IMG/VR virus record: IMGVR_UViG_3300024336_000001
Coordinates: 1-64,000 of that record
Source: a virus
Reading direction: 5' to 3' (one strand)
Length of the DNA: 64,000 nt
In this document: one piece after another, positions 8,245-55,800 of the stretch
Layout of the letters: the number at the start of each line of letters is the position of its first letter
Numbering within the stretch: the first letter of the stretch is position 1
The notes under the pieces: model-generated
What the model was told of the DNA's origin: nothing
Database searches by the model: none
What the model saw: only the letters and a program-made list of their open reading frames with translations
Made by a program: the position numbers and the translations under genes

Positions 8245-8319
8245 TGGTAGCCCCGCCCGGAATTGAACCGGAGTTACTAGGATGAAAACCTAGTGTCCTA
8301 ACCACTAGACGACAGGGCC
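8245..8319 (-). tRNA. tRNA-Glu (anticodon TTC) with encoded CCA
   Basis: On the minus strand a full cloverleaf can be folded from 8319 to 8245. The acceptor stem starts GGCCCTG and pairs with CGGGGCT with two G-U pairs. The anticodon stem CTAGG/CCTAG encloses the loop TTTTCAT, giving anticodon TTC for Glu. The T arm contains GGTTCAATTCC. The discriminator A is at 8248 and CCA is encoded at 8247-8245. Phage tRNAs often supplement codon use; a tRNA can also mark an integration site. Confidence 0.93.
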
Positions 8320-9280: not shown

Positions 9281-9541
9281 TTAATACCGATATAGCTTCA
9301 TAGCTTCGTCATCACAAGGGACAAGATCTCTGATGACCTCTTTGGTTTTACACTTATCTCCATTCGTCATTACAAAAGAATACAGTTTTGTTGCAAGGTG
9401 ATAATAAATAGCCCAATCGTGCTTAATTCCCCTCACAGCAACCCACCTTACCGGATCTTTGTGTAATACTGGGTTTTGGGTGACACCTTTGGCAAAATCT
9501 AATTCAGGTTCCATAGCGTTTAATTTTTCAACCGTTAGCAT
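9281..9541 (-). CDS. Hypothetical small phage protein
   Basis: An 86-residue protein with several aromatic positions (DPVRWVAVRGIKHDWAIYYH) and a KLYSFVMTNGDKC segment. It resembles short alpha/beta phage proteins of unknown function. Its start lies inside the end of the upstream gene (7-bp overlap), showing translational coupling to it. Confidence 0.55.
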   Translation of the reverse strand: MLTVEKLNAMEPELDFAKGVTQNPVLHKDPVRWVAVRGIKHDWAIYYHLATKLYSFVMTNGDKCKTKEVIRDLVPCDDEAMKLYRY

Positions 9542-10686
9542 AATACTGGCTCCCTTTCAGCTTCAACCGGGATCATTTTCTTTTCCAGTTGAGCATAAAT
9601 AAGGCTGTGGATTTCAGCTCTTATTGCTTTCTCAAAAATCCCCCTCGACTTATCCTCTCCATTTTTCCCACGCCTTTCAAATTCGCAAATAAAATTATTT
9701 TTCGAAACCGCTTGCACAGCAACACTCCTTAGCCTCGTATATTCTTCGTCAAATTCATCAAAAGCGTCTAATTTTTTTGATGCTAAATCTCGTATTTTTT
9801 GTTTCAACCCAACCTGTTTTTTCAGCGTTGCTTCCCGTGCCGTCTTTTCTCCTTGTGCTTTAGCTTTGTTTTCCATTTCCCGGATTTCTTCCTCGAGATA
9901 TTCCCAAGTATCGGCTTGTTCGTTATTGTGATAAATAAACTGAATCCAAGCTCCTTTCGACTTCTTTGGCTTTTGTCCTTCTACAGTCATCTTAAGCTCT
10001 ACATAGCGTTTTGATAATTTAGTTTTTAGATGGTCATTTTTCTTAATAATTTTTTTACTAAAAGACCCCACCCCTTTTTTTTCTGTTGGAGGTGTTTTTA
10101 ATGTTAAATTGGGTTTATTATACGTGCGCGCATGATCCCTGCTGTTTTCGCTACTTGATATTCGACAGGGGGTATGCTGATTTCCCTGTGTAATTTCGAC
10201 AGGGGGTATGCTGACGGTTATGCCTGGGGCCGACTGGGTGTCTTGGGTTTGATCTTCCTCGGCACTCTGCGGATAGGCTAGAGTCTGTCCATTAAATTCA
10301 ATTTTTGGACCTTCTGATTTTGGAGGATCTTTGGGGTATTCTTTGTCATCACGGTAGCCTTTAAAAATTGCTACGTTAAAAGTGTAGATGTTTTCCCCTC
10401 CCACCTCTCGCTCAATAGTTAAAAACCCTTTTTTCTCAAGCTCTTTTATAAACCTGTCTTTTTTGTATCTTGTAAGCCCGAATTCTTCCTTAATCTCACT
10501 GTTTTTAACTTTTAATTGGTTTCCATCTTGTTTTGTCAAAGCTATTTTTGAGCCTAACGCAACATAGAAATAGGCGATTTCCCAAGATAGTTTAGACTCT
10601 TTAACAAAAGAATGGATATCTTCCAGTTTGACGTAGTTGTTTTGTTTGCACTTTTGAACCATAATAAATACGGTTTTTAGAGACAA
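9535..10686 (-). CDS. Winged-helix protein, candidate replication initiator
   Basis: A 383-residue protein. Residues about 1-115 read as a winged helix of the kind found at the front of phage and plasmid replication proteins (IKEEFGLTRYKKDRFIKELE, then KKGFLTIERE). A proline-rich linker (about 118-190) and a basic C-terminal region with a coiled coil follow. The reading starts with TTG at 10686 behind GGGGGTGA; ATG 10662 has no ribosome site. A 20-bp direct repeat lies in the linker-coding part, which fits an internal origin as in lambda O. The role as initiator is inference. Confidence 0.55.
   Translation of the reverse strand: MSLKTVFIMVQKCKQNNYVKLEDIHSFVKESKLSWEIAYFYVALGSKIALTKQDGNQLKVKNSEIKEEFGLTRYKKDRFIKELEKKGFLTIEREVGGENIYTFNVAIFKGYRDDKEYPKDPPKSEGPKIEFNGQTLAYPQSAEEDQTQDTQSAPGITVSIPPVEITQGNQHTPCRISSSENSRDHARTYNKPNLTLKTPPTEKKGVGSFSKKIIKKNDHLKTKLSKRYVELKMTVEGQKPKKSKGAWIQFIYHNNEQADTWEYLEEEIREMENKAKAQGEKTAREATLKKQVGLKQKIRDLASKKLDAFDEFDEEYTRLRSVAVQAVSKNNFICEFERRGKNGEDKSRGIFEKAIRAEIHSLIYAQLEKKMIPVEAEREPVLC
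10161..10214. repeat. Two 20-bp direct repeats inside the candidate rep gene
   Basis: TTCGACAGGGGGTATGCTGA occurs at 10161-10180 and again, identical, at 10195-10214. The 34-bp offset is not a multiple of three, so the copies are read in different frames and do not encode a repeated peptide. The selection is therefore at DNA level, as for initiator binding sites. Confidence 0.75.
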
Positions 10687-10933: not shown

Positions 10934-10957
10934 AAAAACCCCGCTTTAGCGGGGCTT
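10934..10957 (-). terminator. Intrinsic terminator of parAB operon
   Basis: On the minus strand the stem CCCCGC/GCGGGG (10939-10944 and 10949-10954) with a TAAA loop is followed by TTTTT. The parB stop codon (10948-10946) lies in the loop, so the hairpin overlaps the end of the gene. Confidence 0.8.
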
Positions 10958-11794
10958 CCGTTCTTTCAGTTGTTTTCTAGCTCTAATTATAAAGTTCTCA
11001 CAGATTCCTATTTTACGCAAAACTTCATCTTCTGGTTCTTTATTATGTATCTTTAACTTTAAACCTACAGCGTTAGCCATTTCTTTTATGCCCTCACGGG
11101 TTTCATATTGTCTTTTTTTAGCAGAAACATCGTTGTTGTTTTCAGACGCTAATAAACCAGCAACATCTGTTTCTGGCATATCAATAAAACTCATAGTTTC
11201 TTTAAAGGTATATTCTTGTTCCCGTAAAAAAGCCTTTTTATCAAGGCTTAGGTTATTAATTTGACTTAGTTTTTTTATCCAAGATAAAGACCTGTGTATT
11301 TTCTTTGCCATTTTTTCTAAAGTAAGGCCGAGGTCTTTTTTTACTAATAAAACTGCTTCCGCAGTATCAATAGGGTGTAAATCTATTCTTTGAAGATTTT
11401 CATCAAGCTGTGCTAGAGATATTTCAACAGGATCTTCTGTATATTCAGTGACCCGGCCTTTAATTGTAGCGGCCCCAATCAACTTGTGTGCCCTATATCT
11501 ATTCTCTCCAAATTTTATAATATAACGATCTCTATCTGTAGGGTGTTTCATGACAGATATTGGTTGAGACAACCCTCTATCTTTTATAGATTCAGACATC
11601 TCCGATATTTTCTCTTCATTGAAGCTTGTGCGAACCTGTTTTCGAATTTCTATATTATCTAAAGGAATATCCAGCACAATAGAGTCTTTGTAGGTTAATA
11701 TCTTATACTCTCTGTCTTCAGCATCACTAGGAGAAGGAGATATTTTTTGCAAAGTCTTATCCATGTTTTTTGAAATTCTTTCTTTATTCTTCAT
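10946..11794 (-). CDS. parB: ParB-family partition protein
   Basis: A 282-residue CTP/DNA-binding partition protein that would load on the centromere and be moved by ParA. The ParB/Srx nuclease-like domain (about 40-140) has the signature GENRYRA (96-102) and a DENLQR segment (131-136). A helix-turn-helix follows at about 157-180 (LTLEKMAKKIHRSLSWIKK). The C-terminal part would dimerise. It overlaps parA by 4 bp (ATGA) and ends in an intrinsic terminator. Confidence 0.92.
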   Translation of the reverse strand: MKNKERISKNMDKTLQKISPSPSDAEDREYKILTYKDSIVLDIPLDNIEIRKQVRTSFNEEKISEMSESIKDRGLSQPISVMKHPTDRDRYIIKFGENRYRAHKLIGAATIKGRVTEYTEDPVEISLAQLDENLQRIDLHPIDTAEAVLLVKKDLGLTLEKMAKKIHRSLSWIKKLSQINNLSLDKKAFLREQEYTFKETMSFIDMPETDVAGLLASENNNDVSAKKRQYETREGIKEMANAVGLKLKIHNKEPEDEVLRKIGICENFIIRARKQLKERKPR

Positions 11795-12645
11795 TTATTT
11801 GTTAACTCCAGAACCTTGTTGGCCAATTTAATATAATCTTTTGAGCCTTGGCAATTTGGTTTATAGTCAATAATTGCTTGTGCCTCACCATGTGCCTCGT
11901 CAAGAGATATGTTTTTTCTAATGGCGATGTCATCCCAAAATATATTTGGACAATTTAGCATCATTGACTCCCTGGCAGCGTTAGACGTGTTAACGTTGGT
12001 TTCAAAAAAAGTTAAGAAAACCCCTAAAACATCGGCTTCTGCGTTATAAAGTTTTTTACACTTACTCAAAGTCTTTAAAAGACTCTTAAGTCCGAGGAGG
12101 GCAAGTTTCTTTGCTTGTAAGGGCACAAGTAAATGCTGCGCCGCTATTAAGGAGTTGAAAAAAATAAGGCTCATAGAGGGCGGTGTGTCTAAAATAATAT
12201 ACCTGAATCTACTTAAATAATCGCTTTCACGGTCAAATATTTTTTTTAAAACAGATACTCTATGGCGATATGAGGCTAATTCTAAATTAACTTCTTCTAA
12301 AACTAAACCTGTGGGGATGATCTTTAATCGCTTTCTCGCTGTTGGCAAGACAAGTTCCTCTAACTTTTGCTTTTGCATAAAATCCATATCCACCAAGTTT
12401 TCGTTTACGGCTTGAATGAATTGATAAAACATAGTTTCTTTTCTATCTATCTCATCAGGGTCTTTGTCTGAAAAAACAGCAGTTGCATTACCTGAAGGAT
12501 CTAGGTCGCATAATAAGATATCTCCATCGACATCAGCAGAATAAATAGGATCTGAGAGGATGGCCGCTAAATTAATAGCCGTTGTGGATTTGCCCACACC
12601 GCCCTTTTGATTTGTAACTGCAATAATATCTGTTTTTCGAGCCAT
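11791..12645 (-). CDS. parA: ParA-family partition ATPase
   Basis: A 284-residue Walker-type ATPase that segregates low-copy replicons. The deviant Walker A KGGVGKST lies at residues 14-21 with the signature Lys14. DLDPSGNAT follows the first strand and the Walker B region reads RYIILDTPPS. No N-terminal DNA-binding domain is fused, so it is the short ParA type; a separate MerR-like protein is encoded just upstream and may supply DNA binding. The presence of parAB argues for an extrachromosomal, low-copy state. Confidence 0.95.
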   Translation of the reverse strand: MARKTDIIAVTNQKGGVGKSTTAINLAAILSDPIYSADVDGDILLCDLDPSGNATAVFSDKDPDEIDRKETMFYQFIQAVNENLVDMDFMQKQKLEELVLPTARKRLKIIPTGLVLEEVNLELASYRHRVSVLKKIFDRESDYLSRFRYIILDTPPSMSLIFFNSLIAAQHLLVPLQAKKLALLGLKSLLKTLSKCKKLYNAEADVLGVFLTFFETNVNTSNAARESMMLNCPNIFWDDIAIRKNISLDEAHGEAQAIIDYKPNCQGSKDYIKLANKVLELTNK

Positions 12646-12939: not shown

Positions 12940-13011
12940 AAAAGTACATCCGATGTACTTTTCCGATGGCGGCCAACGGGCTAAGACCAAAAGTACATCG
13001 GATGTACTTTT
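12940..13011. repeat. Twin 23-bp palindromes with arm AAAAGTACATC
   Basis: Two perfect palindromes, 12940-12962 and 12989-13011, each have 11-bp arms (AAAAGTACATC / GATGTACTTTT) around one central base (C in one, G in the other). Their centres are 49 bp apart. They lie between the par operon promoter and the end of the next gene, so they may be operators or ParB sites; their T/A tracts also allow a terminator role. A related palindrome lies at 16734-16759. Confidence 0.7.
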
Positions 13012-16481: not shown

Positions 16482-16782
16482 AGCGGGTCCCTTTTAAATT
16501 CAACCATAAATATAATAAACATAATTTTGCAGCCCCTTTTCATATGCAAAAATAAATCCCAATAAAATAAACAAAATTCAATTTCTCTATATTTCCAAAA
16601 AACCATAAAAAAACAAAAAGGTCAATAGGTTTTACAATAATAATAAACAAGATATTTCAATGTTTATTAATTTTCATAAGTGGGAATATTATAGTATGAA
16701 GGTCGGTACGCCGATCAAGTTGACGCATGGGGGAAAAGTACGCTGTTTAGCGTACTTTTAATACTAAATTGAGGCTGAGTTA
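16482..16782. promoter_or_regulatory. Divergent control region with two dyads
   Basis: This 301-bp gap between divergent genes is very AT-rich. It holds an inverted repeat AATAAACA-11-TGTTTATT (16642-16668) and, at 16734-16759, an 11-bp-arm palindrome (AAAAGTACGCT, loop GTTT, AGCGTACTTTT) that shares AAAAGTAC with the twin palindromes at 12940-13011. These could be operators for the HTH protein at 16783. I see no gene. Confidence 0.55.
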
Positions 16783-17271
16783 ATGTGGTATAAAATACTT
16801 AAGGAATATATTAAAACGTCAAAAATGAGCCTTGTTCAATTTGCCGGGATACTTGGCATTTCTAAGCAATACCTAAGTGACATTCTCTCTGGTAGAAAAC
16901 CGCCACCAAATGCAGACACCATTATAAAAATCCTAGAATATTTTGAAAATAAGTTAGCATTATCACACGAAGAGGTTTATGTTTTTTTAGTAGCGGCCAT
17001 AAAAGAAAAAGCCCCGGAGAATATTAGGCGTTTGCTAAATGAGCTTGGAGCCAGGCTCCACCAAGAGATTGTTGTAAATGAGCAACTAACGAACGAGATA
17101 CAAAAAAGAGAATTGCACGAAGTTATTATTGGGCAATATACACATAGAATCTTGCAGGGAATATCTTTTATTGATGAGTCTGACAAGGCTTTGGTACTCA
17201 GGTTTATGGACTCACTTTTAAATCAACCGACAGATAGAATCGTTAAATTTCTGGAGTTGATAGAGCCATAA
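16783..17271 (+). CDS. XRE-family regulator
   Basis: A 162-residue protein with an N-terminal helix-turn-helix (SLVQFAGILGISKQYLSDIL, then SGRKPPPNADTI at about 16-47) and a helical C-terminal region of about 100 residues likely to dimerise. Length and layout are like the regulator at 27594-28133, so both could be repressors of the same general type, though the sequences are far apart. It has a weak GAGG ribosome site, and it sits beside the iteron region, so a role in copy control is possible. Confidence 0.75.
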   Translation: MWYKILKEYIKTSKMSLVQFAGILGISKQYLSDILSGRKPPPNADTIIKILEYFENKLALSHEEVYVFLVAAIKEKAPENIRRLLNELGARLHQEIVVNEQLTNEIQKRELHEVIIGQYTHRILQGISFIDESDKALVLRFMDSLLNQPTDRIVKFLELIEP

Positions 17272-17470: not shown

Positions 17471-17482
17471 CATAATCTCGCA
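17471..17482 (+). other. Half-site CATAATCTCGCA, recombinase-type
   Basis: CATAATCTCGCA is identical to 36936-36947 before the recombinase gene and shares AATCTCGCA with the perfect palindrome at 18489-18518. It may be an isolated binding site for the recombinase next to the iterons. Confidence 0.45.
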
Positions 17483-17519
17483 ATAACAAACCCCCACACA
17501 AAAGGATTGAGCCTAAACC

Positions 17520-17636
17520 GGACATAATCCGTTTCACTTTGGACATAATCCGTAAAAAAGTGGACATTTTCCGTTAATAAGTGGCTATAATCCGTAGTGC
17601 TAAAAATAGCTAGGCACGAAATTGGACATAATCCGT
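17520..17636 (+). repeat. Iteron array, five forward copies
   Basis: Consensus GGACATAATCCGT. Copies begin at 17520, 17541, 17562 (GGACATTTTCCGT), 17583 (GGCTATAATCCGT) and 17624. The first four are exactly 21 bp apart and the fifth 41 bp on, so all face the same side of the helix. Such phased direct repeats are typical of iteron plasmid origins or of centromeres. No gene covers them. Confidence 0.85.
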
Positions 17637-17769
17637 AAATATAGCAAAAAACACCAAAAATAAATTTCAAACGAAAAAAATTTTGAAAAAATAAGACGCT
17701 GGAAAAACTTCACCATTATTATAAAGAAGCGAATACGCCAGAGATCATTATAGGAAAACAGCCAGAAAA

Positions 17770-17896
17770 ACGGATTATGTCCGATTTACGCACGAAGTCT
17801 AAAGAAAACTACGCCTTATGCTCAGTTTTTAACGGATAATGTCCAGTAAAATGCGGAAAATGTCCAAAAAACAGCACCTAGATACGGAAAATGTCC
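17770..17896 (-). repeat. Iteron array, four reverse copies
   Basis: The complement of the same 13-mer occurs at 17770-17782, 17832-17844, 17853-17865 and 17884-17896 with small changes (A/T centre). Together with the forward set it flanks a 133-bp AT-rich stretch (17637-17769) that could be the melting region of an origin. Orientation change around an AT-rich core is the notable feature. Confidence 0.8.
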
Positions 17897-17924
17897 AAAT
17901 TAAATAATGAGGGAAAAATAGAAA

Positions 17925-18428: not shown

Positions 18429-18488
18429 GCCTAAGCAACACAAAAACAAGTCGTTTTTACTTGCATAATTACCCCTAAAATCGTGCGT

Positions 18489-18518
18489 AATCTCGCATAA
18501 AGTATATTATGCGAGATT
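18489..18518. other. Perfect 12-6-12 dyad, candidate recombinase crossover site
   Basis: AATCTCGCATAA, a 6-bp centre (AGTATA) and TTATGCGAGATT form a perfect palindrome of 30 bp except for the centre. This is the layout of tyrosine-recombinase core sites such as loxP, dif or cer. The 12-bp arm recurs exactly at 36939-36950 before the tyrosine recombinase gene, and 10 bp of the other arm at 36992-37001. A multimer-resolution or integration site is the likely role. Confidence 0.7.
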
Positions 18519-19183: not shown

Positions 19184-19779
19184 TTAAGTTCTTTCATATT
19201 ATTATCAAGCATATCTGATTTTTTTAATACCGTATGTGTGTCTTGAAAGTCATCTAATATTTTAGAAAATCTGTGTACTTCTCTACTTAATTGAAGCGTT
19301 TTATCATTTGATAACTTGCTTTCTACTTTTTGGTTTGCGTCTATAGCTTCAACTTTAGATTCAATATATTTTAGCTTTTGTTTTAGTAATTCGTATTGAG
19401 GCTGCATATATATTTGTTTTCTTAGAGCCACGAATATTTTTATAATCTTGTGGTTAATTTCAATAGCAATTTTGCTGTTTAGCACACTTGATAAAGTCAG
19501 TATGCCGTATTCATTATATACATAAGGAAGGTATTTAATGTTTTTGCCTTGTTTCAAGATTCCATTTTGGCATCTTGAAAGTTGCTCAACTTCGGATGAG
19601 GTTAATTGAAAAACAAAGTCCCCTGGAAATCGGTCAATATTTCTTTTCATTGCCTTGTTTAAATTCCCTGTTTTTACGCCATATAATTGCGCTAAATCAG
19701 AGTCTAGCATGGTTTTAATGCCTCTAAACTCGTAAATTTTTGAAGCAATATTTTCGTGTTCTACTATTGTTAAATCCAT
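19180..19779 (-). CDS. ORF6N-domain protein
   Basis: A 199-residue phage regulator-type protein. Residues about 10-110 match the ORF6N domain found in phage antirepressors: YEFRGIKTMLDSDLAQLYGV, NIDRFPGDFVFQL and KYLPYVYNEYGILTLSSVLN. A helical C-terminal tail follows. AAGGA lies before ATG 19779. A 31-bp palindrome stands upstream and a close relative lies within the gene, which may be its own operators. Confidence 0.85.
   Translation of the reverse strand: MDLTIVEHENIASKIYEFRGIKTMLDSDLAQLYGVKTGNLNKAMKRNIDRFPGDFVFQLTSSEVEQLSRCQNGILKQGKNIKYLPYVYNEYGILTLSSVLNSKIAIEINHKIIKIFVALRKQIYMQPQYELLKQKLKYIESKVEAIDANQKVESKLSNDKTLQLSREVHRFSKILDDFQDTHTVLKKSDMLDNNMKELN
19552..19580. promoter_or_regulatory. 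Internal copy of the ORF6N palindrome
   Basis: TTTCAAGATTCCA (19552-19564) and TGGCATCTTGAAA (19568-19580) pair at 12 of 13 positions. It lies inside the ORF6N coding sequence and shares its arm with the palindrome at 19796-19826. Confidence 0.6.
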
Positions 19780-19795
19780 TGTTTTATATCCTTAT

Positions 19796-19826
19796 ATTTC
19801 AAGATTCCAAATTGGAATCTTGAAAT
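19796..19826. promoter_or_regulatory. 31-bp palindrome before ORF6N gene
   Basis: Perfect 15-bp arms (ATTTCAAGATTCCAA and its complement) around a central A at 19811. It sits between the stop of the gene ending at 19826 and the ORF6N start. There is no T-run behind it on the coding strand, so an operator or RNA processing site is more likely than a terminator. Confidence 0.75.
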
Positions 19827-23160: not shown

Positions 23161-23179
23161 CCGTTCCAAAGAATCAAAT

Positions 23180-23211
23180 AAAAATGTGGGGCTTTATCTC
23201 CCCACATTTTT
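23180..23211. terminator. Intrinsic terminator or attenuator within the accessory operon
   Basis: A perfect 12-bp stem (AAAAATGTGGGG / CCCCACATTTTT) with an 8-nt loop and T-run. It lies inside the operon and would reduce expression of the distal genes. It also shows that ATG 23186, inside the hairpin, is not a start. Confidence 0.85.
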
Positions 23212-23230
23212 AAGCGAAAGGAAAGAAATC

Positions 23231-30109: not shown

Positions 30110-31816
30110 ATGAATAAATTAAAAAAGAAAACAAAAGAAAAAGAAACGCTTCTCTCTGCTAATTTTATCACAAAAGATGGTTTAGAACACAAAGAACTAG
30201 ACCTTCCTGAAAGTCACCCTGGAAAACTATCCCTCGGAAGAAATGTAACCGATACAAATATTATCCCGCATGAAGACAGATTAGATCTTGATGGCGAAGA
30301 TGTTGCTGGTTTATTCCCAGAGGTAAAAAAAGAAGTATTTGAACCAACGACCGGTATTCAAGATAAAGATAAAAATTATATTCTTGAAAACGAAATCACA
30401 AATCTAGTTGAGGATGTCCAAAAAACAAAAGAAACCCCACAAATTATCAATGCTAACGACCTTGTTTTTACTGTTACCAAAAAAGAACCAGGAGATAGGG
30501 TTGAGATTATCCAGGATTACCCGGCTAAAGTTTTTCCAGAGCCTAAAAATAAAGCTTTTATTGAAAAAATAGACGAAATATGGAGCGAGACATCTTCAGG
30601 GATGTCTTTTCATCATCTCTACACAGAAGACTTTGCGCTAGATGGCCGAGAAATACACATTAAAGGGCAAAAGGTTCTCAATTTTGGGTCTTGTAGTTAT
30701 TTGGGCTTAGAGCACCACCCAAAGCTAAAAGAAGGAGCGATAGAGGCAATACAGAGATACGGCACTCAATACTCTTCGTCCATTACTTATCTGTCATTAG
30801 GTTTATATAAAGAACTGAAAGAAAAATACACAAAAATATTTGGAAGTAACGTTGTGTTAGCCCCAACGACAACCTTGGCTCATGCATCTAGCATTCCATT
30901 GATAGCTGATGAACACGACGTTTTTTTGTTAGACCAACAAGTTCACAACTCTGTACAAATGGGCACTCAATTAGCCGCAGCGCAGGGGACACCTTTTTTT
31001 ATAATGCCTCACAACAATATCGAGGCTCTTGAAGATAAAATCCAGAAATTGAAAAATGAACATAGAAAAATTTGGTATTTTCTTGATGGGGTTTACTCAA
31101 TGTATGGAGATCTAGCCCCTATTGCCGAGCTAGAAAAGTTGCGAGATAAATATGACAATTTATATCTTTATATAGATGATGCTCACGGAACAAGCTGGCG
31201 AGGAAAAAATGGGAAAGGTCATGCGTTAAGCTGCCTGAAAAGCTTAAGGAAGACCATAGTCGCTGTTTCTAACAACAAGGCGTTTGCTGGGGCCGGAGGA
31301 TCCTTGGTTATAGAAGATCCAGAACTTTATAATGTTATAAGCAATTTTGGTCAGACAATGATTTTTGGGGGACCAATTCAACCGGCCAACTTAGGAGCAT
31401 GTTTGGCTTCTGCCGATATTCATTTATCAAAAGAAATTTATGTGCTTCAAGATAAGCTTAGATCAAAGATTGATCTAAGAAATAGATTGTTTGATAAATA
31501 TGATATTCCGGTTTTTGGAGATCGCCAAACCCCCATATCCTTTATTTGTGTGGGATCCCCAAAATCCCTTGGGATCCTTTTTCATAAATTGTTTGAAGAT
31601 GGCATTTACACTAATTGTGCAGTATATCCGGCTGTATCCAAACAAAAAAGTGGTCTTAGGACAACAATGACTAATCATCTTACAGATGCGGACATTGAAA
31701 AATTTGTTGAGCGAGTTGCCTATCATTTGCCCAAAATTCTTCAAGAAGAAGGGTCCTCGATAGAAAAAATTAAAAAGAGGTTTAAAATAAAAGAGAGAAA
31801 CCTTGTAAAGGTTTAA
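30110..31816 (+). CDS. Alpha-oxoamine synthase, CqsA/LqsA-like autoinducer synthase
   Basis: A PLP enzyme expected to condense an acyl-thioester with an amino acid or amine, as CqsA and LqsA do to make alpha-hydroxyketone-type signals. The core spans about 150-545. Visible are NFGSCSYLGLE (191-201), the PLP-stacking His in LLDQQVHNS (His279), DGVYSMYGDLAP (326-337), the PLP-binding DDAHGT (356-361) and Lys390 in SNNKAFAGAGG, the Schiff-base lysine. An unusual 150-residue charged N-terminal extension precedes the core; CqsA has about 390 residues in all. The sensor kinase begins 2 bp after its stop. KBL, BioF, ALA synthase and serine palmitoyltransferase are relatives; kinase linkage favours signalling. 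Confidence 0.88.
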   Translation: MNKLKKKTKEKETLLSANFITKDGLEHKELDLPESHPGKLSLGRNVTDTNIIPHEDRLDLDGEDVAGLFPEVKKEVFEPTTGIQDKDKNYILENEITNLVEDVQKTKETPQIINANDLVFTVTKKEPGDRVEIIQDYPAKVFPEPKNKAFIEKIDEIWSETSSGMSFHHLYTEDFALDGREIHIKGQKVLNFGSCSYLGLEHHPKLKEGAIEAIQRYGTQYSSSITYLSLGLYKELKEKYTKIFGSNVVLAPTTTLAHASSIPLIADEHDVFLLDQQVHNSVQMGTQLAAAQGTPFFIMPHNNIEALEDKIQKLKNEHRKIWYFLDGVYSMYGDLAPIAELEKLRDKYDNLYLYIDDAHGTSWRGKNGKGHALSCLKSLRKTIVAVSNNKAFAGAGGSLVIEDPELYNVISNFGQTMIFGGPIQPANLGACLASADIHLSKEIYVLQDKLRSKIDLRNRLFDKYDIPVFGDRQTPISFICVGSPKSLGILFHKLFEDGIYTNCAVYPAVSKQKSGLRTTMTNHLTDADIEKFVERVAYHLPKILQEEGSSIEKIKKRFKIKERNLVKV

Positions 31817-31818
31817 CC

Positions 31819-34686
31819 TTGGATATATTTTACTGGTCTTCGATAGCTGCTTTTTTTCTCACATTATTTTTGGCCGTCTTTGTGTATTTTGAGGACAAGC
31901 AACGAAGCACCCACAAAGTATTAGGCTTGTTTGTTTTAATCTTGGCCGTAGGCATCTTTGGTGATTTTTATTACAGAATTCCAATAATTAACTCTTCTTT
32001 TATACCCAATATATTGCGGGGCATTTTCGCCATTGTGCCGTTTTCTCCGGCTTTATGGGTACATTTTATTTTCTTGTTTACAAAAATTAAACCAAAAAAA
32101 CACGTACTCTCGACTATATATTTAAGTTCATTGGTGTTATCGGTGTTAAATGTGCTATTTCCTAAATTTATTTTTAGTGAAGTTTCTTTAACGGCGACAC
32201 ATCTTCTTAAGACAACCCCGTCCATAGGATTTTATTTATTTGCTATATATATCTTCGGGGGGGCAACTCTAAGTCTGTATTTTGTTATTAAAGCAAGAAA
32301 GCGCAGCGCAGGGCATTTTAGAGAGCAACTAAACTATTATTTGTTTGCAAACGTTATTATTTTTATAGCTGTAATATTGTATGCAATAGCGGTTGGTTTC
32401 TTTCCGGGCTTTCCTCGCCTGGATAATGTGTTTTTAAGTATATATGTTTTAATTATTGTTTATAGTATTACTAGAAGAGAGCTATTAAACATAAAACTCC
32501 TTGTTGGCCGTCTGCTCACATATGGGCTATTAGTAGCGGGGGTCGGCTTTGTGATGTATATGTCTCGTTTTTCCGTAGACAGTTTCTATTTATCTTCGCT
32601 CGTGGCTTTCGTTATCTCTACTTGGCTGGCATCATTTATTTTTATCAAGGGCAAAAGAAGCTTAATTAATAGAGTATTTGCAGGGTTTTTATTAACGCTA
32701 TCTGCCGGAATATTTGGCGATTACTTTTATTATACGCCAGTGGTTAACAATATTGCTCCAAGAGAATTGTTAAGAGCAGCGTATGTAATAACACCTTTTT
32801 CTGCATCTACGTTATTACATTTTATATTCTTATTCACAAAGACTAAGCCTCCCAAGGGTATAGTCCCATTATTATATACTGGATCTATATTATTGATGGT
32901 ATTGAACTTAGCGATACCAGCGTTTTATTTTCAATCAGCCACAGTTAAAACGTTAGGGGAGTTGAGCACGACAACGACACTGGCTTATCACGTCTTTAGT
33001 AGTTATAACCTGATGGCAGTATTGCTTAGTTTTGTGTTTGTAATACGCCGAAGAAGAAAAAGCAGAGGGAAATTAAGGGCGCAGATGAATTATTATCTTT
33101 TTGCTGCGGTTAGTATTATATGTGCAGCACTTTTATATTCTATTGCAATGGGAATTTCTCCAAATACTCCAAGATTAGATAATATATTCTTGGTTCTTTA
33201 TGTTTGTACCATTGCATATAGCATTACTAAAAGTGAACTATTTCAAATTCAGATTGTTATTAGTCGAACGCTTGCTTATGGGTTAACCTATGCCTCTGTA
33301 ATATTTATTTTTTTGCTAATGAACCTACATATTAAAGAGCCGAATATAAAAGTATGGTTTAATCTGTTTTATTGTTTACTGTGTGCATTGGTAGCTCCTA
33401 GAGTAAGAGGAAAGCTTCAGACTGGATTAGAAGAGAAATTTGTGTCAGACGATTATGAGCCTAATAAGGTTATAGATGAAATAACAAAAGATATTACCGG
33501 TGTTTATGAAAGAGAAGGTATTTTTAAAATTTTAATCAAAGCCATAGAAGCAATTATCAAAACCAAAGATAGTCATTTATTAGTTTTGGAAAAAGGGACT
33601 GAAAGAACCAACAATATTTTTCATTTATATGACAAGGATATGATAGAAGTTGCAAGTATGGACCCAGATAATCCGGTTATCAAATATTTTCATAATAAAT
33701 ATAAGCCAATAAAATTCAGTAAGCTAGATAAGGAAGCGCAGGGCGAACTAAAAAAATATTATATTAATAGATTTAGCATTCTAATTCCCTTATACTCTCC
33801 TCCCAATTTATTTGACGGGCTGCTTATTGTTGGACAAAAAGTATCAGAGGCCGCTTACACGAATAAAGATATAGGTTTGTTTCAAACCATTATAAATTTT
33901 ACAAAAGTGATTTTAGATAGACTCCGGCCATATGAGGAAATCAAGCAGGAGTACGCAGAAGATAGAGAGCGAGTATATGAAGCTAAAATGATGGAAATTC
34001 AAGCCAAAAAAAATGAGGACTTCGCTTATACTATTCAAGAGTATAACCACGAGATCAGAACCCCTTTAACTATGCTAATTGGAGCTATTCACACCTTACT
34101 TTATAAAATTAAAGGACAAAAGCCTATTTCGAACTTAAAAGAAGAGTTAGATGATATGCTAAAAAATGGAGAGAGGATGAACGATATAGTTGGCACAACA
34201 TTAAGGCTTACTCCAGGCAGCATTAGTGAAAGAAAGCGGAAAAGAGATCCCCAAGGAATAAATGAAATTATCCAGCAAGCACTTGATCTATATACGTTTG
34301 TACACGAGGTTAAGGTGATTAAGAATTTTAATGAAGAAGAGATATATGTATTCGGTGTTAATAATGATATTGAACGCATTTTCATAAATCTAATTCGTAA
34401 TGCCGATGAAGCAATGCCTAAAGGAGGAAAGCTTCAAATTAAAACCTCCCTGCAAAATCAAGAAGCTTGCATTGAGATAAAAGACACCGGAATAGGAATC
34501 CCGGAAGAAGATCAACAAAAAGTATGGGAAATACATCGCTCAAGACATGTAACAAAAGGCAGAGGCTTAGGTTTGTCGATAGTTCATAGATTAGTGACTG
34601 AGCACCAAGCCAGGATCACTTTAAATAGTATAGAAGGGGAAGGCACAACTTTTACTGTGCTTTTTCCGACAGTGGAGGCTATTTAG
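31819..34686 (+). CDS. Sensor histidine kinase with duplicated 7TM sensor
   Basis: A 955-residue membrane kinase. Start TTG 31819 lies 2 bp after the synthase stop with AAAGG before it. Residues about 1-245 and 255-500 are two copies of one seven-helix sensor: compare GIFGDFYYRIPIINSS (45-60) with GIFGDYFYYTPVVNN (297-311), and PRLDNVFLSIYV with PRLDNIFLVLYV. The repeats resemble the 7TM N-terminal region of histidine kinases. A GAF-like segment (about 560-700), a coiled coil, the H-box EYNHEIRTPL (His744), N-box (IFINLIRNADEA), DTGIGI and GRGLGLS follow. It has no receiver domain, so the regulator at 34964 may take the phosphate. It is the likely receptor for the product of 30110. Confidence 0.92.
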   Translation: MDIFYWSSIAAFFLTLFLAVFVYFEDKQRSTHKVLGLFVLILAVGIFGDFYYRIPIINSSFIPNILRGIFAIVPFSPALWVHFIFLFTKIKPKKHVLSTIYLSSLVLSVLNVLFPKFIFSEVSLTATHLLKTTPSIGFYLFAIYIFGGATLSLYFVIKARKRSAGHFREQLNYYLFANVIIFIAVILYAIAVGFFPGFPRLDNVFLSIYVLIIVYSITRRELLNIKLLVGRLLTYGLLVAGVGFVMYMSRFSVDSFYLSSLVAFVISTWLASFIFIKGKRSLINRVFAGFLLTLSAGIFGDYFYYTPVVNNIAPRELLRAAYVITPFSASTLLHFIFLFTKTKPPKGIVPLLYTGSILLMVLNLAIPAFYFQSATVKTLGELSTTTTLAYHVFSSYNLMAVLLSFVFVIRRRRKSRGKLRAQMNYYLFAAVSIICAALLYSIAMGISPNTPRLDNIFLVLYVCTIAYSITKSELFQIQIVISRTLAYGLTYASVIFIFLLMNLHIKEPNIKVWFNLFYCLLCALVAPRVRGKLQTGLEEKFVSDDYEPNKVIDEITKDITGVYEREGIFKILIKAIEAIIKTKDSHLLVLEKGTERTNNIFHLYDKDMIEVASMDPDNPVIKYFHNKYKPIKFSKLDKEAQGELKKYYINRFSILIPLYSPPNLFDGLLIVGQKVSEAAYTNKDIGLFQTIINFTKVILDRLRPYEEIKQEYAEDRERVYEAKMMEIQAKKNEDFAYTIQEYNHEIRTPLTMLIGAIHTLLYKIKGQKPISNLKEELDDMLKNGERMNDIVGTTLRLTPGSISERKRKRDPQGINEIIQQALDLYTFVHEVKVIKNFNEEEIYVFGVNNDIERIFINLIRNADEAMPKGGKLQIKTSLQNQEACIEIKDTGIGIPEEDQQKVWEIHRSRHVTKGRGLGLSIVHRLVTEHQARITLNSIEGEGTTFTVLFPTVEAI

Positions 34687-34963: not shown

Positions 34964-35461
34964 TTATTTAGATTCGTCTTCTAGTTCTTTGCGTCTGACA
35001 TAAGATTTTTCTCTTAGATCATCTTTCATGTATTCACCATGCTTTTTGATGACAACCTTTTCTAAAACATCTACTAATTCGTCTGGGTTAAATGGTTTTT
35101 TAAGATACCCTACTGCACCCCCCACAATGGGGCTAGTAGCTTTAGCCCATTTTTTTTGATCTTCGTAAGCACTTAGTATAATAACACTCATTTCTTCATA
35201 AAAGCCTTCAGATTTGCGCCACTCCCTGAGCATATCAAGCCCATCCAGGTCAGGCATTTTTATGTCTAAAATTACACAATCAATTTTATTTGGTCCTATA
35301 CCAACCCAGGTTTTATGTTTTTTTAATGTTTTCAAGCCTTCTTTTCCGCCGTTAGCGGTAATGATATTCCATCCTAAACGATCCTCAACAGTATTTTTTA
35401 TCAAGTTTGTAACGCCCACCTCATCATCAATAGCTAAAATTAAAGGTTTACCTTTTTTCAT
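34964..35461 (-). CDS. Single-domain response regulator
   Basis: A 165-residue receiver protein. Acid pocket Asp12-Asp13, phosphoacceptor Asp66 in DCVILDIKMPDLDG, Ser97 in IILSAYE and Lys122 in LKKPFNP are all present. Only a 30-residue charged tail follows, so there is no DNA-binding output domain. It would act by protein contact, or through a regulator elsewhere. AAAAAGGAGG precedes ATG 35461. It is the probable partner of the kinase at 31819, whose gene converges on it. Confidence 0.9.
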   Translation of the reverse strand: MKKGKPLILAIDDEVGVTNLIKNTVEDRLGWNIITANGGKEGLKTLKKHKTWVGIGPNKIDCVILDIKMPDLDGLDMLREWRKSEGFYEEMSVIILSAYEDQKKWAKATSPIVGGAVGYLKKPFNPDELVDVLEKVVIKKHGEYMKDDLREKSYVRRKELEDESK

Positions 35462-36062: not shown

Positions 36063-36329
36063 ATGAATAATGAATTTGGAATCAGCGATCTTCAAATAAA
36101 ACTAATGGCAAATAAGCTGGGGTATCCAGGAGGGCTATCTGAGCAGGAATTAGCGGATATTAAGGTGGGGCTTATTGGAGAAATATTCAAAAAAAGGGAA
36201 GAGCTAGTATACCCTGTTATTAAATATGCCCTTGAGCTAAGGCTTAAGAAAAATAAAGGTGTAGTTCGTACAAGATGTTGTGAAAAAGATGCTGCGAAAA
36301 TAAGGTGCTGTGATAAGAATGAAGACTAA
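36063..36329 (+). CDS. Hypothetical small protein with Cys pairs
   Basis: An 88-residue protein, GAGGGAG before ATG 36063. It is helical (GGLSEQELADIKVGLIGEIF) and ends with two CC pairs (RTRCCEKDAAKIRCC). Overlaps the HU-like gene by 20 bp. Function unknown. Confidence 0.55.
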   Translation: MNNEFGISDLQIKLMANKLGYPGGLSEQELADIKVGLIGEIFKKREELVYPVIKYALELRLKKNKGVVRTRCCEKDAAKIRCCDKNED

Positions 36330-36636
36330 GTATCTTAAAGATATCCTCACAAGGATGTGCAGGCATCCTAAAAAATATCCATTAACAAACAGGTCTTCGG
36401 TTACAAATGCCCAAAGACTAGAAATAATTAAGGGGGTTTTCGATGAAATGATAGAATGTTTATTAGAGGGGTGTAATTTTGAAATAAAGAATTTTGGGAC
36501 AATAAAACGGAAAGAAAGACCAGGGAGAACTTATAGGAACCCCAAAACAGGTGATAAAATTAAAAAGGATCCGGCAACAACATTGAAGTTTAATATAGCA
36601 AAAAAGATGAGAGACAGGCTAAATGAGCAATCCTGA
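36310..36636 (+). CDS. HU/IHF-like DNA-binding protein
   Basis: A 108-residue member of the bacterial histone-like family. The C-terminal half has the family signature: FEIKNFGTIKRKERPGRTYR, NPKTGDKI and TLKFNIAKKMRDRL, which form the DNA-bending arms. GTG 36310 with AAGG is used as start; ATG 36319 is possible. It may help the neighbouring recombinase as IHF does for integrases, or compact the origin. Confidence 0.85.
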   Translation: MIRMKTKYLKDILTRMCRHPKKYPLTNRSSVTNAQRLEIIKGVFDEMIECLLEGCNFEIKNFGTIKRKERPGRTYRNPKTGDKIKKDPATTLKFNIAKKMRDRLNEQS

Positions 36637-36677: not shown

Positions 36678-36911
36678 ATGATGGGAGAAATGGATCAAAA
36701 AAGGATTATGAAAAAACTCGGAAGTAAAATTACTACTTTAAAGAAAAAGGAAGGGTTAGTTACTGAGGAATTAGCAAAGAAAATAGACGTAGCAAGAAGT
36801 ACCTTATGGTGTATTGAGACGGGAAAAGTAGACCCTAAAATGAGCACAGTAGTAAAGATAGCAAAGTTTTTTGGTATGAGCATTTCGGAATTATTAGATT
36901 TTAATAAATAG
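36678..36911 (+). CDS. Small XRE-family regulator
   Basis: About 77 residues. The helix-turn-helix reads EGLVTEELAKKIDVARSTLW, then CIETGKVDPKMSTV. Start codons at 36642, 36678, 36681 and 36690 are in frame; 36678/36681 follow GAGGG. It lies between the HU-like and recombinase genes and probably controls one of them. Confidence 0.8.
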   Translation: MMGEMDQKRIMKKLGSKITTLKKKEGLVTEELAKKIDVARSTLWCIETGKVDPKMSTVVKIAKFFGMSISELLDFNK

Positions 36912-36938: not shown

Positions 36939-37001
36939 AATCTCGCATAAATAAATATATATACATTGACAAATACACTAATTATGCATTATTATGCGAG
37001 A
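36939..37001 (+). promoter_or_regulatory. Recombinase promoter with two half-sites
   Basis: TTGACA (36966-36971), 18 bp, TATTAT (36990-36995). The half-site AATCTCGCATAA (36939-36950) lies upstream and TTATGCGAGA (36992-37001) covers the -10 end. Both match the palindrome at 18489-18518. The recombinase may repress its own gene by binding here. Confidence 0.65.
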
Positions 37002-37017
37002 AACAAGGAGGTTTAAA

Positions 37018-38088
37018 TTGAATACTGAATTAAAATTACATAATGATATAGAAACAAGGATTGAAAAGTTACCTGAACACTATAAAAAGTTTTTTATATG
37101 GAAGCAGCCAAACAAATCTACAAGACGACATACGATCAAATCATATTTATTGCATTTGAATAAAGTAGAAGATCTATTAGGGAAAAAGTTGATGGAGAAA
37201 AAGGGGGCAGCATATGTTTCTGTAACCAAAGATGAGTTGGTTCAACTAAAAGACACTCTATCACATAAGCTTAACCATAAACCTTCAAGCGTGAATGCTT
37301 ATTTAGCTTCAATAAAATCTATTTTCAAATATTGGACACAAGAGTTGGAGATTGTAGAAAAATCCCCTATCCCGCTGGACTTTCAAGAAGAAGAACCATA
37401 CGCAGAGAAGGAAATGTATATTACTGAAGAACATTTAAGGGAAATAAATAATATATTAGATGAGCTGGTTAAGACAGTTACAACTAAAATACCGGCCAGC
37501 ATGAATGTCACAAGCCTTTTCTTCCATGCTTTACAACGCAAGGCAATTATTAGGTTAATGATTGATACAGGGGCTAGAGTTGGGGAAATTGCTGGAATTA
37601 CTGCAAATGATTTTGACAGATACGAAATTATGATAGACAAGAGAAAGCACAAACAATGGCAAGTGAAAATATATAATTCTAAAAAACGAGATGGATCTCC
37701 CTTAGCTCGCTGGCTACCTATATCAAAAGAAACAAAAAAAGCAGTGGATGAAATGCTTTATCATGCTCAATTAAAAATAAAAAACGGGGAACTGCCTTTA
37801 TCAACTGCAAACTTTAGTAAAGCCTTTCATAGAAAAAATAGATCTAGGGCAATTCAAACTTGGATTAACGAGATACAAAAAGACCTTAATAAAATGGGGT
37901 ACAATATCCCGAAGCTGACACCCCATCATTTTAGACATCTGTTTGCTACCAGACTAATTCTGGCAGGCGAAAACGATGCAACCGTACAGAAAATGTTAGG
38001 GCAAAAAAACATTCAAAGTATAATCAGGTATGTTAAAGCCAGCAACCAAATGGCTGGAGCTGCCAGCTATAGAACCTTTGGTTTTTAA
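37018..38088 (+). CDS. Tyrosine site-specific recombinase
   Basis: A 356-residue phage-type or Cre/Xer-type recombinase. An N-terminal SAM-like domain (about 15-115) precedes the catalytic domain with Arg187 (DTGARVGE), His303 and Arg306 (TPHHFRH) and Tyr338 (IRYVKA); the usual second His before the Tyr is Gln329 (MLGQKN). Start TTG 37018 has an ideal AAGGAGG 6 bp upstream; the in-frame ATG 36994 lies in the -10 box and cannot be used. It probably resolves multimers or integrates at the site 18489-18518. Confidence 0.9.
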   Translation: MNTELKLHNDIETRIEKLPEHYKKFFIWKQPNKSTRRHTIKSYLLHLNKVEDLLGKKLMEKKGAAYVSVTKDELVQLKDTLSHKLNHKPSSVNAYLASIKSIFKYWTQELEIVEKSPIPLDFQEEEPYAEKEMYITEEHLREINNILDELVKTVTTKIPASMNVTSLFFHALQRKAIIRLMIDTGARVGEIAGITANDFDRYEIMIDKRKHKQWQVKIYNSKKRDGSPLARWLPISKETKKAVDEMLYHAQLKIKNGELPLSTANFSKAFHRKNRSRAIQTWINEIQKDLNKMGYNIPKLTPHHFRHLFATRLILAGENDATVQKMLGQKNIQSIIRYVKASNQMAGAASYRTFGF

Positions 38089-52832: not shown

Positions 52833-55800
52833 CTAAATACTCCCTGAAACTACGGTGACGGACAAAACATCGGTTGCTCCTGATGTTTGCCTTATGTCCA
52901 GATAATTGCCACTATATTGAAGGTCAAAAGGACTACTGCCCGTGCTACTCAAAACAGCTTCATTCCAATATATACCCTTTCCTGAATAAGAATAGGCAAT
53001 AATCGCTGAATGCCCATTTGTGCTTAAATTAGCAAAAACAAGCCCTGATTCTCTTGAACCATTAAAAGCCTTCAGTGTATACCAAACATTGTTTGATGCG
53101 CTTTCAATTCTCTTAGTTGTAAAGTTCCCTCTCCCATATAAAGATAATCGGCTATCATTTTGATATAAATCTAAAAAACCTTCTTGCGTTAAACACATTT
53201 TCTCAGAAATGGCATCTGAGGATCTGGTATAAAATGAAAGATCTCCTGATACACCAGAATCTCGCCGCTTCCCTTTAATCATTGCCGACAAATGGTCATC
53301 GTCAGACTCGTAATTGCTGGTTGTTGTATGAAATCTTAGCTCTGGCCCTGCACCATCCGATGTAGATGAATGTGAAAGTACCAGCAAATTAGCACTAGAG
53401 TCTTTAATAATACATTTTGTATCAATAACTGTAGTGCCTATCCCTACTTGACCATCTCCCGTAAACCTTATTGCCTCTGCCCCACCGGGCTTGAAAATTA
53501 TATGGCCAGTTGAATTCCAGCCTGCTGTAATTGTTAGCTCGTTTGATTGTCCCACTCTTAAAACATCTATTCCGCTGTGATTAATTCCAAACCTATTCCC
53601 AGAGTTGTAATTATTTTCTATTGTTGTTTTATAGGCACTTTCTTCTGTTCCTAAGACTATTTGGGTTGTTGCATGATATTTACTTATTTCAAGGCCGTTA
53701 GTCGCTGCCGGAGCCGTAGTACCAATACCAACTTTCCCATCATTTTTAATTACAAATTTTGTTGAGTGGCTGTCACCTGGTGTATAAAACTGGAAGTCGT
53801 ATGTATTAGAATATGTGTTTGGAATCGCTTTAATCCCCGCCGTAACTGTTCCTGCCATATTTGACTGAAACTTAATCTCACAAGGATAAACATCCAAATT
53901 AGTAGTATTCATATTATGTAACAACAACACAGTTCCAGCCGTGCTATTTGATTTGTATAGTTCTAATAATTGGCTTGGGGAAGATGTGCCAATCCCAACT
54001 CGTCCGCTCGAATTTTCACTCAGTATTTTTCGGCCATCGGTATCACTTGTAGGCGCACTTCCTTTTAGCCTAAGATCCGCATTGTCATCTAACCAAATTC
54101 TATGATTAGCTGTATGGGTGGCTAATCCTAAAGACACTCTCTCTGCATCAGAACCTAACTCAAGATTTATGAAACCACCACCGTTACCTGTCCCGTGCGC
54201 CCAAATGATTCGCTTATCGTCCCCTGTATCCTTTACGTCTAATTTATAAAGAGGGTCCCCATCATCAAGCCCTATGCCAGTATTCCCACTGCTATTGATA
54301 GTTAATCGATGCTCTCCCGCATCACTGTCATAAAAACTTAAAAAACCTCCGCCTATTGTCCAAGAACTATCAGTTGAAATCATGTTGTATTTTCTGCCGC
54401 CGGTCCCGCTCGACCAAACGCCAACCCAGGGAGAAGCTGTCTGGCTAAGAATTGCTCCAGCCACTTCTAATTTTTGACCTGGGTTAGTTGCTCCTATCCC
54501 AACGTTTCCGTCACTTGCTATTCTTATGCGCTCCGCACTATTAACATGAAACACCATATAATCCACAGGTGTGCCACCTGTAAAATGGTAATAGCCTATC
54601 ATTCCTGGAGATCCATCTTTATCGCTAAAATGTATTCTATTTCCAATGCTTGTAGGTGAAGTGGCTGAAGCAAATAAGTTTATTTGCGATGCGTTATATG
54701 CCTCAGCGTGTGTACCTTCTATTGTTAGTGTGGATGTATCTCCATAAGAGCCATATATATGAAGTCTTGTAGAGGGGCTGCTAGTCCCAATCCCAACCTC
54801 TCCCGTAGGAGTAACCGCAAGTTTGCTTACCCCGCCTGTTGTTAAATTTCTTATTTCAAAATTATCACCACTCGCCCCATTAATTCGCATTCCCCAATTA
54901 ATCGCATCATTTCCTATTCCTATGCCTATGATTCCATTAGCTGTGGTCCCATTATGTACATAGAGTGGGTACTGATTATCTGTGGCTACTTCAACATGCA
55001 GCAACTCCGTTGGCTGATCTGTACCTATTCCAACTCGCCCAGTAGCGTTTTTTATTGTAACGGCCCGACTCCAAGCTGTTGAATCGTGTCTCCATAAAGC
55101 TAAATCTGAGTTTGCTTGTAATTGCCATGCCATTTTTTTATTTGAATCAGAGTTATAAAACTCTACCCCTGATACGCCTGTCGAAGAGTTTGTGTTTTCT
55201 AATGTGAGATAAGAATAATCAGCGTGTTTTATATGAAATATTGTACTAGGACTAGATATGCCAATCCCCCATTTCCCATCACTAGTTATCCTTGCCGCTT
55301 CATTGCTCGTAAGTAACCCATTAAGAGAAAAAATAATAGGGATCGCACTTTCTGTTGCCAGCACTAAGCCTGATGTTGACGCTTGCGCTGATACAAAACA
55401 TCGTCCCGTTAAAATTGTGTGTGTAGAGTGCGCTGTTCCTGCCACACCAATGTTACAACCGCCTCCGGTATCATTTAATGTTCCCCAATAAACTAATCCA
55501 GCACTGTTTATGTTTTCAGCCCTTGCTCTCAAGGAGCTTGCTGTTGATTTATAGACGTGAAGCTCATAGTCTGGGTTTGTTGTGCCAAGACCGACATTGC
55601 CACCATTGTAATAGATTTCACTCCCATTAGCAGACCAGTAGGTATCACTTGAGGTTCCCACAGGCACTCCATTAATCGTGATGCTATCAGCCTCGATATT
55701 TCCAACAACTTCAAGCGGGTGTCCTGGTGAAGTTGTACCAATGCCAACATTTCCATTATTTCTTATATATACTTTAGGCGTTGCAGATGATGCGCTATTT

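Follow-up and report, generated by a model that had tools for sequence, protein, structure and literature searches.

The inverted repeat at positions 18489-18518 is, with reasonable likelihood, the core site recognised by the tyrosine recombinase that the element itself encodes, used for multimer resolution, while the same enzyme would repress its own gene through half-sites at its promoter. The repeat was found in a stretch of viral DNA of 64,000 nucleotides (hereafter the window), which comprises positions 1 to 64,000 of the IMG/VR record IMGVR_UViG_3300024336_000001. It reads AATCTCGCATAA-AGTATA-TTATGCGAGATT, a perfect 12-6-12 arrangement whose sequence and coordinates agree exactly with those of a preliminary description of this DNA, and its 30 bp occur as a single copy in the full virus record of 88,849 b. 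The features discussed below are listed in Table 1.

Table 1. Positions of the core site, the recombinase locus and the replication and partition features in the window
Feature	Position	Strand	Remarks
Replication-initiator-like protein	9535-10662	-	Weak O-like match: phrog_391 2e-5, phrog_428 3e-5
ParB partition protein	10946-11794	-	
ParA partition ATPase	11791-12645	-	
Degenerate half-site AATCTCGCAATAA	17474-17486	+	One-base insertion
Iterons, GGACATAATCCGT type	17515-17636	+	
Opposed array of GGACATAATCCGT-type iterons	17768-17899	-	
Degenerate half-site AATCGTGCGTAA	18479-18490	+	9/12 match, 10 bp beyond the left arm
Proposed recombination core site	18489-18518	.	Perfect 12-6-12 repeat
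Core-site arms	18489-18500, 18507-18518	+, -	Centre AGTATA 18501-18506
HU/IHF-type DNA-binding protein	36319-36636	+	PF00216, 1e-18
XRE/RstR-like HTH gene	36678-36911	+	Immediately precedes the recombinase promoter; its product is a rival regulator
Upstream half-site AATCTCGCATAA	36939-36950	+	15 bp before the -35 box
Recombinase promoter TTGACA-18-TATTAT	36966-36995	+	Score 11/12; boxes 36966-36971 and 36990-36995
Downstream half-site	36992-37003	-	10/12, TTATGCGAGA exact; over most of the -10 box
Tyrosine recombinase	37018-38088	+	356 aa, TTG start, SD AAGGAGG

The proposed core site and its arms at the recombinase promoter

Perfect repeats are not rare in the window, where other long examples occur at 19796-19826 and 23179-23212, so a perfect inverted repeat is in itself weak evidence. 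At the level of sequence, the strength of the observation lies in the arms that the core site has in common with the recombinase promoter. The arm 12-mer AATCTCGCATAA is present exactly three times in the record, as both arms of the site and as the half-site at 36939-36950, where an identical arm had already been described, against a Markov expectation of 0.017. Likewise, TTATGCGAGA is present exactly four times in the whole record (0.16 expected under the Markov model), in both arms and at 36941-36950(-) and 36992-37001(+). The last of these belongs to the partial reverse arm previously noted over the -10 box, which indeed matches 10 of 12 positions and covers most of the hexamer. Only 0.13% of all 106-bp stretches contain a pair of matches to the arm at 10/12 or better.

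At each of the two loci, a degenerate copy of the arm (18479-18490 and 36982-36993(-)) accompanies a true arm at a distance of 10 bp. The related half-site formerly placed at 17471 really lies at 17474-17486 and carries a one-base insertion (AATCTCGCA-A-TAA). It is probably a chance match, AATCTCGCA being expected 0.63 times per record, and its sole distinction is its place in the origin region.

The two half-sites at the promoter stand singly, 41 bp apart, and the downstream one is probably an autorepression operator. The putative self-regulation of the recombinase through these half-sites is supported by their position and by the eight comparison loci described below. Promoter-like matches are frequent by chance in the AT-rich DNA found here, and the 600-b stretch around the recombinase promoter contains three of them, with three expected by chance.

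The HTH gene directly upstream of this promoter suggests another reading, in which a transcription factor, most likely the XRE/RstR-like product of 36678-36911, uses the arms as operators and the recombinase acts elsewhere. Other long palindromes of the window also precede regulator-type genes (16734-16759 and 19796-19826). Yet the 12-bp arm is asymmetric and stands singly at the promoter, 41 bp from its partner, whereas XRE dimers normally bind short palindromes. Moreover, the core site occurs in the iteron region with no convincing gene after it, and the same layout is seen at recombinase genes of other phages. We therefore regard the operator reading as improbable, and recognition of the arms by the recombinase as the better account.

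The dimensions of the core site fall within the usual geometry of tyrosine-recombinase sites (arms of 10-14 bp, centre of 6-8 bp), and they fit Xer-type sites, which have an 11-6-11 arrangement (PMC5357621, PMC2731167). The inner region, CGCATAA-N6-TTATG, corresponds to a dif-like centre, and we propose that the asymmetric AGTATA gives the site a direction. Together with the arms shared with the promoter and the comparison across viral contigs, this geometry gives good support to the tyrosine-recombinase core layout put forward in the preliminary description.

The dif-like centre raises the question of whether host XerC/XerD use the site, as they do at cer or with Xer-exploiting integrating elements, the more so as TCGCATAA appears frequently among the XerC arms of a published dif table (PMC2731167). 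However, each of the two arms is of XerC type, with the XerD-type arm (TTATGTTAA or TTATGGAA) missing, and the arms are repeated at the promoter of the element's own recombinase. Use by the host enzymes thus appears very unlikely.

The tyrosine recombinase

TTG 37018, behind the SD AAGGAGG, is the most likely start of the recombinase, which places the right half-site upstream of the gene; the automatically assigned ORF start at 36994 is probably incorrect. The protein is of the two-domain Xer/Cre type and consists of a SAM-like N-domain (20.3 bits, just under the Pfam cut-off of 22.3) and a catalytic domain (PF00589, 9e-18), which is the single PF00589 match in the record. PF00239, the serine recombinase catalytic domain, has no match in the record. 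No arm-binding domain is seen in the recombinase, which favours a simple core-site enzyme. The HU/IHF-type protein encoded nearby is a possible architectural helper.

When the protein is aligned with nine recombinases whose loci contain related sites, R187, K219/K222, H303, R306 and Y338 prove to be conserved. The R-K-H-x-x-R-H/W-Y active site is thus present except at the H/W position, which is occupied by Q329. The nearest structures by sequence in PDB searches are Xer and Tn1549 Int, with Cre absent, whereas the nearest by fold are XerA, XerH, Cre and Tn1549 Int, using a model of moderate confidence (pLDDT 69). The XerC and XerD equivalog scores reach 71 and 68 bits, against cut-offs of 335 and 330.

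No relatives of the recombinase were found in IMG/VR or in GTDB genomes. Its plasmid matches are mostly enterobacterial site-specific integrases/resolvases, one of them beside sopAB, which we take to be of the ResD type. Identity to the plasmid site-specific integrases is about 26-28% over 56-64% of the length, in the C-terminal part. Matches in a Bacteroides finegoldii plasmid and in an Acinetobacter phage record, both among chromosomal-type genes, were set aside.

Likely origin region and proposed multimer resolution

A direct terminal repeat of 127 b closes the record to an 88,722-bp circle. A usual assembly k-mer length is likewise 127, as would fit either a circular molecule or DNA that is circularly permuted. 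Besides this repeat, we find the genes expected of a phage-plasmid, namely the terminase large subunit (TerL), ParA and ParB, and the initiator-like protein, which makes the element a probable phage-plasmid. No close relatives of its TerL or primase-helicase were found in IMG/VR.

The core site had been described as lying beside iterons, and two opposed iteron arrays are indeed present at 17.5-17.9 kb. The circular GC-skew has its minimum plateau at 15.8-20.3 kb and its maximum at 51.75 kb. Given the iterons and the minimum plateau, the core site likely adjoins the replication origin.

This location would also suit a replication hairpin at the origin that serves for priming or as an initiator site and has nothing to do with recombination. 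The region shows strong single-strand DNA folding (z -4.9) and the site adjoins the iterons, but a hairpin leaves the presence of the same arms at the recombinase promoter unexplained, and we give this interpretation hardly any weight.

Multimer resolution, by contrast, is favoured by the plasmid context, i.e. ParAB, the initiator-like gene, the iterons and the origin indicated by GC-skew. We infer binding, recombination, repression and the purpose of resolution as follows. One recombinase molecule would bind each 12-bp arm of 18489-18518, and two sites on a dimer or multimer would synapse as a tetramer, with strand exchange over the central 6 bp, AGTATA. Between copies in direct repeat, such recombination would lead to deletion and restore monomers, which would then be partitioned by ParAB. 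Recombinase bound to the promoter half-sites would block its own -10 box, keeping the enzyme level low.

Several findings, here and in the comparison below, speak against this mechanism. The core site is 18.5 kb from the proposed recombinase gene, whereas on large plasmids the recombinase and its site are usually adjacent (PMC5357621). In addition, the active-site His/Trp is replaced by Gln (Q329), the structure model is of only moderate quality (pLDDT 69), and no close relative of the phage was found that might show the site to be conserved.

Related sites across viral contigs

We searched IMG/VR for TCGCATAA-N-TTATGCGA and counted the distinct sites by spacing, which gave 6 sites for N5, 22 for N6 and 16 for N7, against 17 for N9-13 together. 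The enrichment over the N9-13 controls corresponds to a Poisson p of about 2e-11 for N6 and 6e-7 for N7. A tyrosine recombinase is encoded within 3 kb, a cut-off of our own choice, of 16 of the 38 N6 and N7 sites and of none of the 17 controls (Fisher p=0.001). The N9-13 control was added after the comparison of N5 with N6, which showed no significant difference in recombinase proximity (1/6 vs 7/22, p=0.64).

The same 12-bp arms, with centre TACCTA, are present in two phage contigs (L005 and L006) unrelated to this phage. These contigs are related to each other and have an identical 30-bp site, and the L005 palindrome is not shared by the TerL relatives of L005. Eight loci representing four distinct core sites (L032/L066, L038/L041/L058/L059, L065 and L077) have a half-site 22 bp past the core and another 61-93 bp further, these extra half-sites lying between the core and the recombinase start. 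At L029, L080, L035 and L048, an extra half-site is located at 71-72 bp. In addition, a Pigmentibacter ruber plasmid, itself among the plasmid matches of the recombinase, contains TCGCATAA-TGTATA-TTATGCGA about 150 bp before a xerD-like gene. This recurrence near phage recombinase genes identifies the core layout as a recurrent recombinase site, and the upstream half-sites are recurrent too. The core site studied here has no accessory half-sites at the 22-bp or 72-bp places used in other phages, nor any exact accessory half-site beside it.

Most of the comparison cases look like ordinary phages, and ParA has no match in any of the 11 comparison records searched, some of which are fragments. 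The comparison thus supports a recombinase site more than it supports resolution. The nearby recombinases in the comparison set are probably mostly phage integrases, and this arm type may occur in attP sites too. No palindrome of this arm type was found near the genes of other recombinase homologs with known context, and hence the family as a whole does not conserve the sequence of the arm.

We put forward, with considerable doubt, a broader hypothesis in which a widespread, undescribed group of Xer-like recombinases of phages and plasmids uses symmetric dif-like TCGCATAA-N6/7-TTATGCGA sites, to which further half-sites are added at set distances (22 bp, or 71-72 bp) and, at several of the recombinase genes, around the promoter. 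Such a geometry would couple recombination to autorepression, and this phage would represent a form with the core at the origin and half-sites only at the promoter.

Integration is the main rival to resolution. In that case the core site would be an attP, the recombinase would insert the phage at an attB of the host, and the plasmid genes would be secondary or alternative. Phage tyrosine recombinases are most often integrases, other phages have sites of this arm type in the vicinity of integrase-type genes, and an HU/IHF-like gene lies two genes upstream of the recombinase. An attP, however, normally lies beside int, and the present site is at the origin, 18.5 kb from the gene. Life as a plasmid is indicated by ParA, ParB, the iterons and the circular record, and the recombinase is without a visible arm-binding domain.

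The preliminary description had proposed a search of host genomes for both arms around the 6-bp centre as an attB. No TCTCGCATAA-N6-TTATGCGAGA was found in 84,980 GTDB species genomes, a result to be read with the proviso that attB arms can be imperfect. The two GTDB matches have centres of 9 and 3 bp. Taken together, we judge integration to be unlikely and retain resolution as the preferred reading.

Relation to known recombination systems

Cre/loxP of P1 and the VCre, SCre, Vika, Nigri, Panto and Dre systems likewise comprise one tyrosine recombinase of a phage or phage-plasmid and an inverted-repeat site with an asymmetric centre, for which multimer resolution is proposed. Indeed, single-recombinase systems with symmetric sites are known on phage-plasmids (Cre, VCre, SCre and others; PMC4957104). 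The Cre/loxP site is 13-8-13 (PMC4957104), whereas the site here is 12-6-12. By sequence, the present recombinase matches Xer and Tn1549 Int structures and not Cre, to which the likeness is at the level of the fold only. Furthermore, 18.5 kb separate gene and site here, the latter being at the origin, and half-sites are present at the promoter. The Cre/lox-like label given earlier suits the proposed way of working and not the family, while the cer-like label is a poor one, as cer has an 8-bp centre instead of 6 bp and uses host XerC/XerD (PMC5357621).

ResD (D protein)/rfsF of the F plasmid is likewise a system with a plasmid-borne tyrosine resolvase that also represses transcription. Our recombinase is about 26-28% identical to presumed ResD-type proteins in the C-terminal part only. 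A precedent for a resolvase that also represses is the miniF D protein, given as having both roles in the passage of PMC5587640 that cites Lane 1986.

The chromosomal Xer/dif systems (XerCD, XerH, XerS, XerA) also have dif-like inner arms and an Xer-like protein, with a 6-bp centre in XerCD and XerA. Here, by contrast, symmetric arms would serve one recombinase, which is element-borne and far under the XerC/XerD equivalog cut-offs; XerCD/dif has distinct XerC and XerD arms, whereas both arms are identical here.

TnpI of Tn4430 and Tn5401 binds the core inverted repeat of irs and modulates its own promoter from there (PMC7157771), which provides a precedent for the proposed autoregulation. The irs lies beside tnpI and includes the DR1/DR2 subsites, whereas the core and the promoter half-sites are separate here, and L041 and L077 resemble irs more closely than our core site does.

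In the features compared, the predicted pair falls outside both the Cre/loxP and XerCD/dif families, though it would work like Cre/lox. What would be new with respect to the known systems is the 12-6-12 dif-like core, the Xer-like protein and the 18.5-kb separation of site and gene.

The recombinase and its putative site form a testable pair from a phage without a close relative in the collections searched. If active without host factors, as Cre-like enzymes are, the enzyme could be added to the existing orthogonal tools for recombination, with a site as compact as 30 bp. Seeking arms again at the recombinase promoter may also offer a route to the cognate sites of other phage recombinases. The element adds a case of a phage-plasmid in which the resolution site seems to be placed at the origin and not near the recombinase gene.

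Other repeats and genes in the window

Two perfect 10-1-10 palindromes AAAGTACATCSGATGTACTTT are located at 12941-12961 and 12990-13010, upstream of a MerR-like gene and parAB, with a chance expectation of 0. They are candidates for parS sites or for operators of par. No copy of the canonical ParB site GTTTCACGTGAAAC is present. A perfect 10-6-10 repeat, AAAAGTACGC-TGTTTA-GCGTACTTTT, occurs at 16734-16759, just before an HTH gene (16783-17271), and has the ends AAAGTAC/GTACTTT in common with the candidate parS sites. A 13-5-13 repeat, ATTTCAAGATTCC..GGAATCTTGAAAT, precedes an ORF6N gene at 19796-19826, and a second, imperfect copy lies inside that gene at 19552-19580. The repeat at 23179-23212 is a perfect 13-8-13 one, TAAAAATGTGGGG..CCCCACATTTTTA.

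We also observe a tRNA-Glu (TTC) gene at 8245-8319. The regions 30110-34686 and 34964-35461 carry cargo unusual for a phage, comprising an aminotransferase, a 7TM histidine kinase and a response-regulator-like gene, and a gene of 3187 aa extends from 52833 to 62396.
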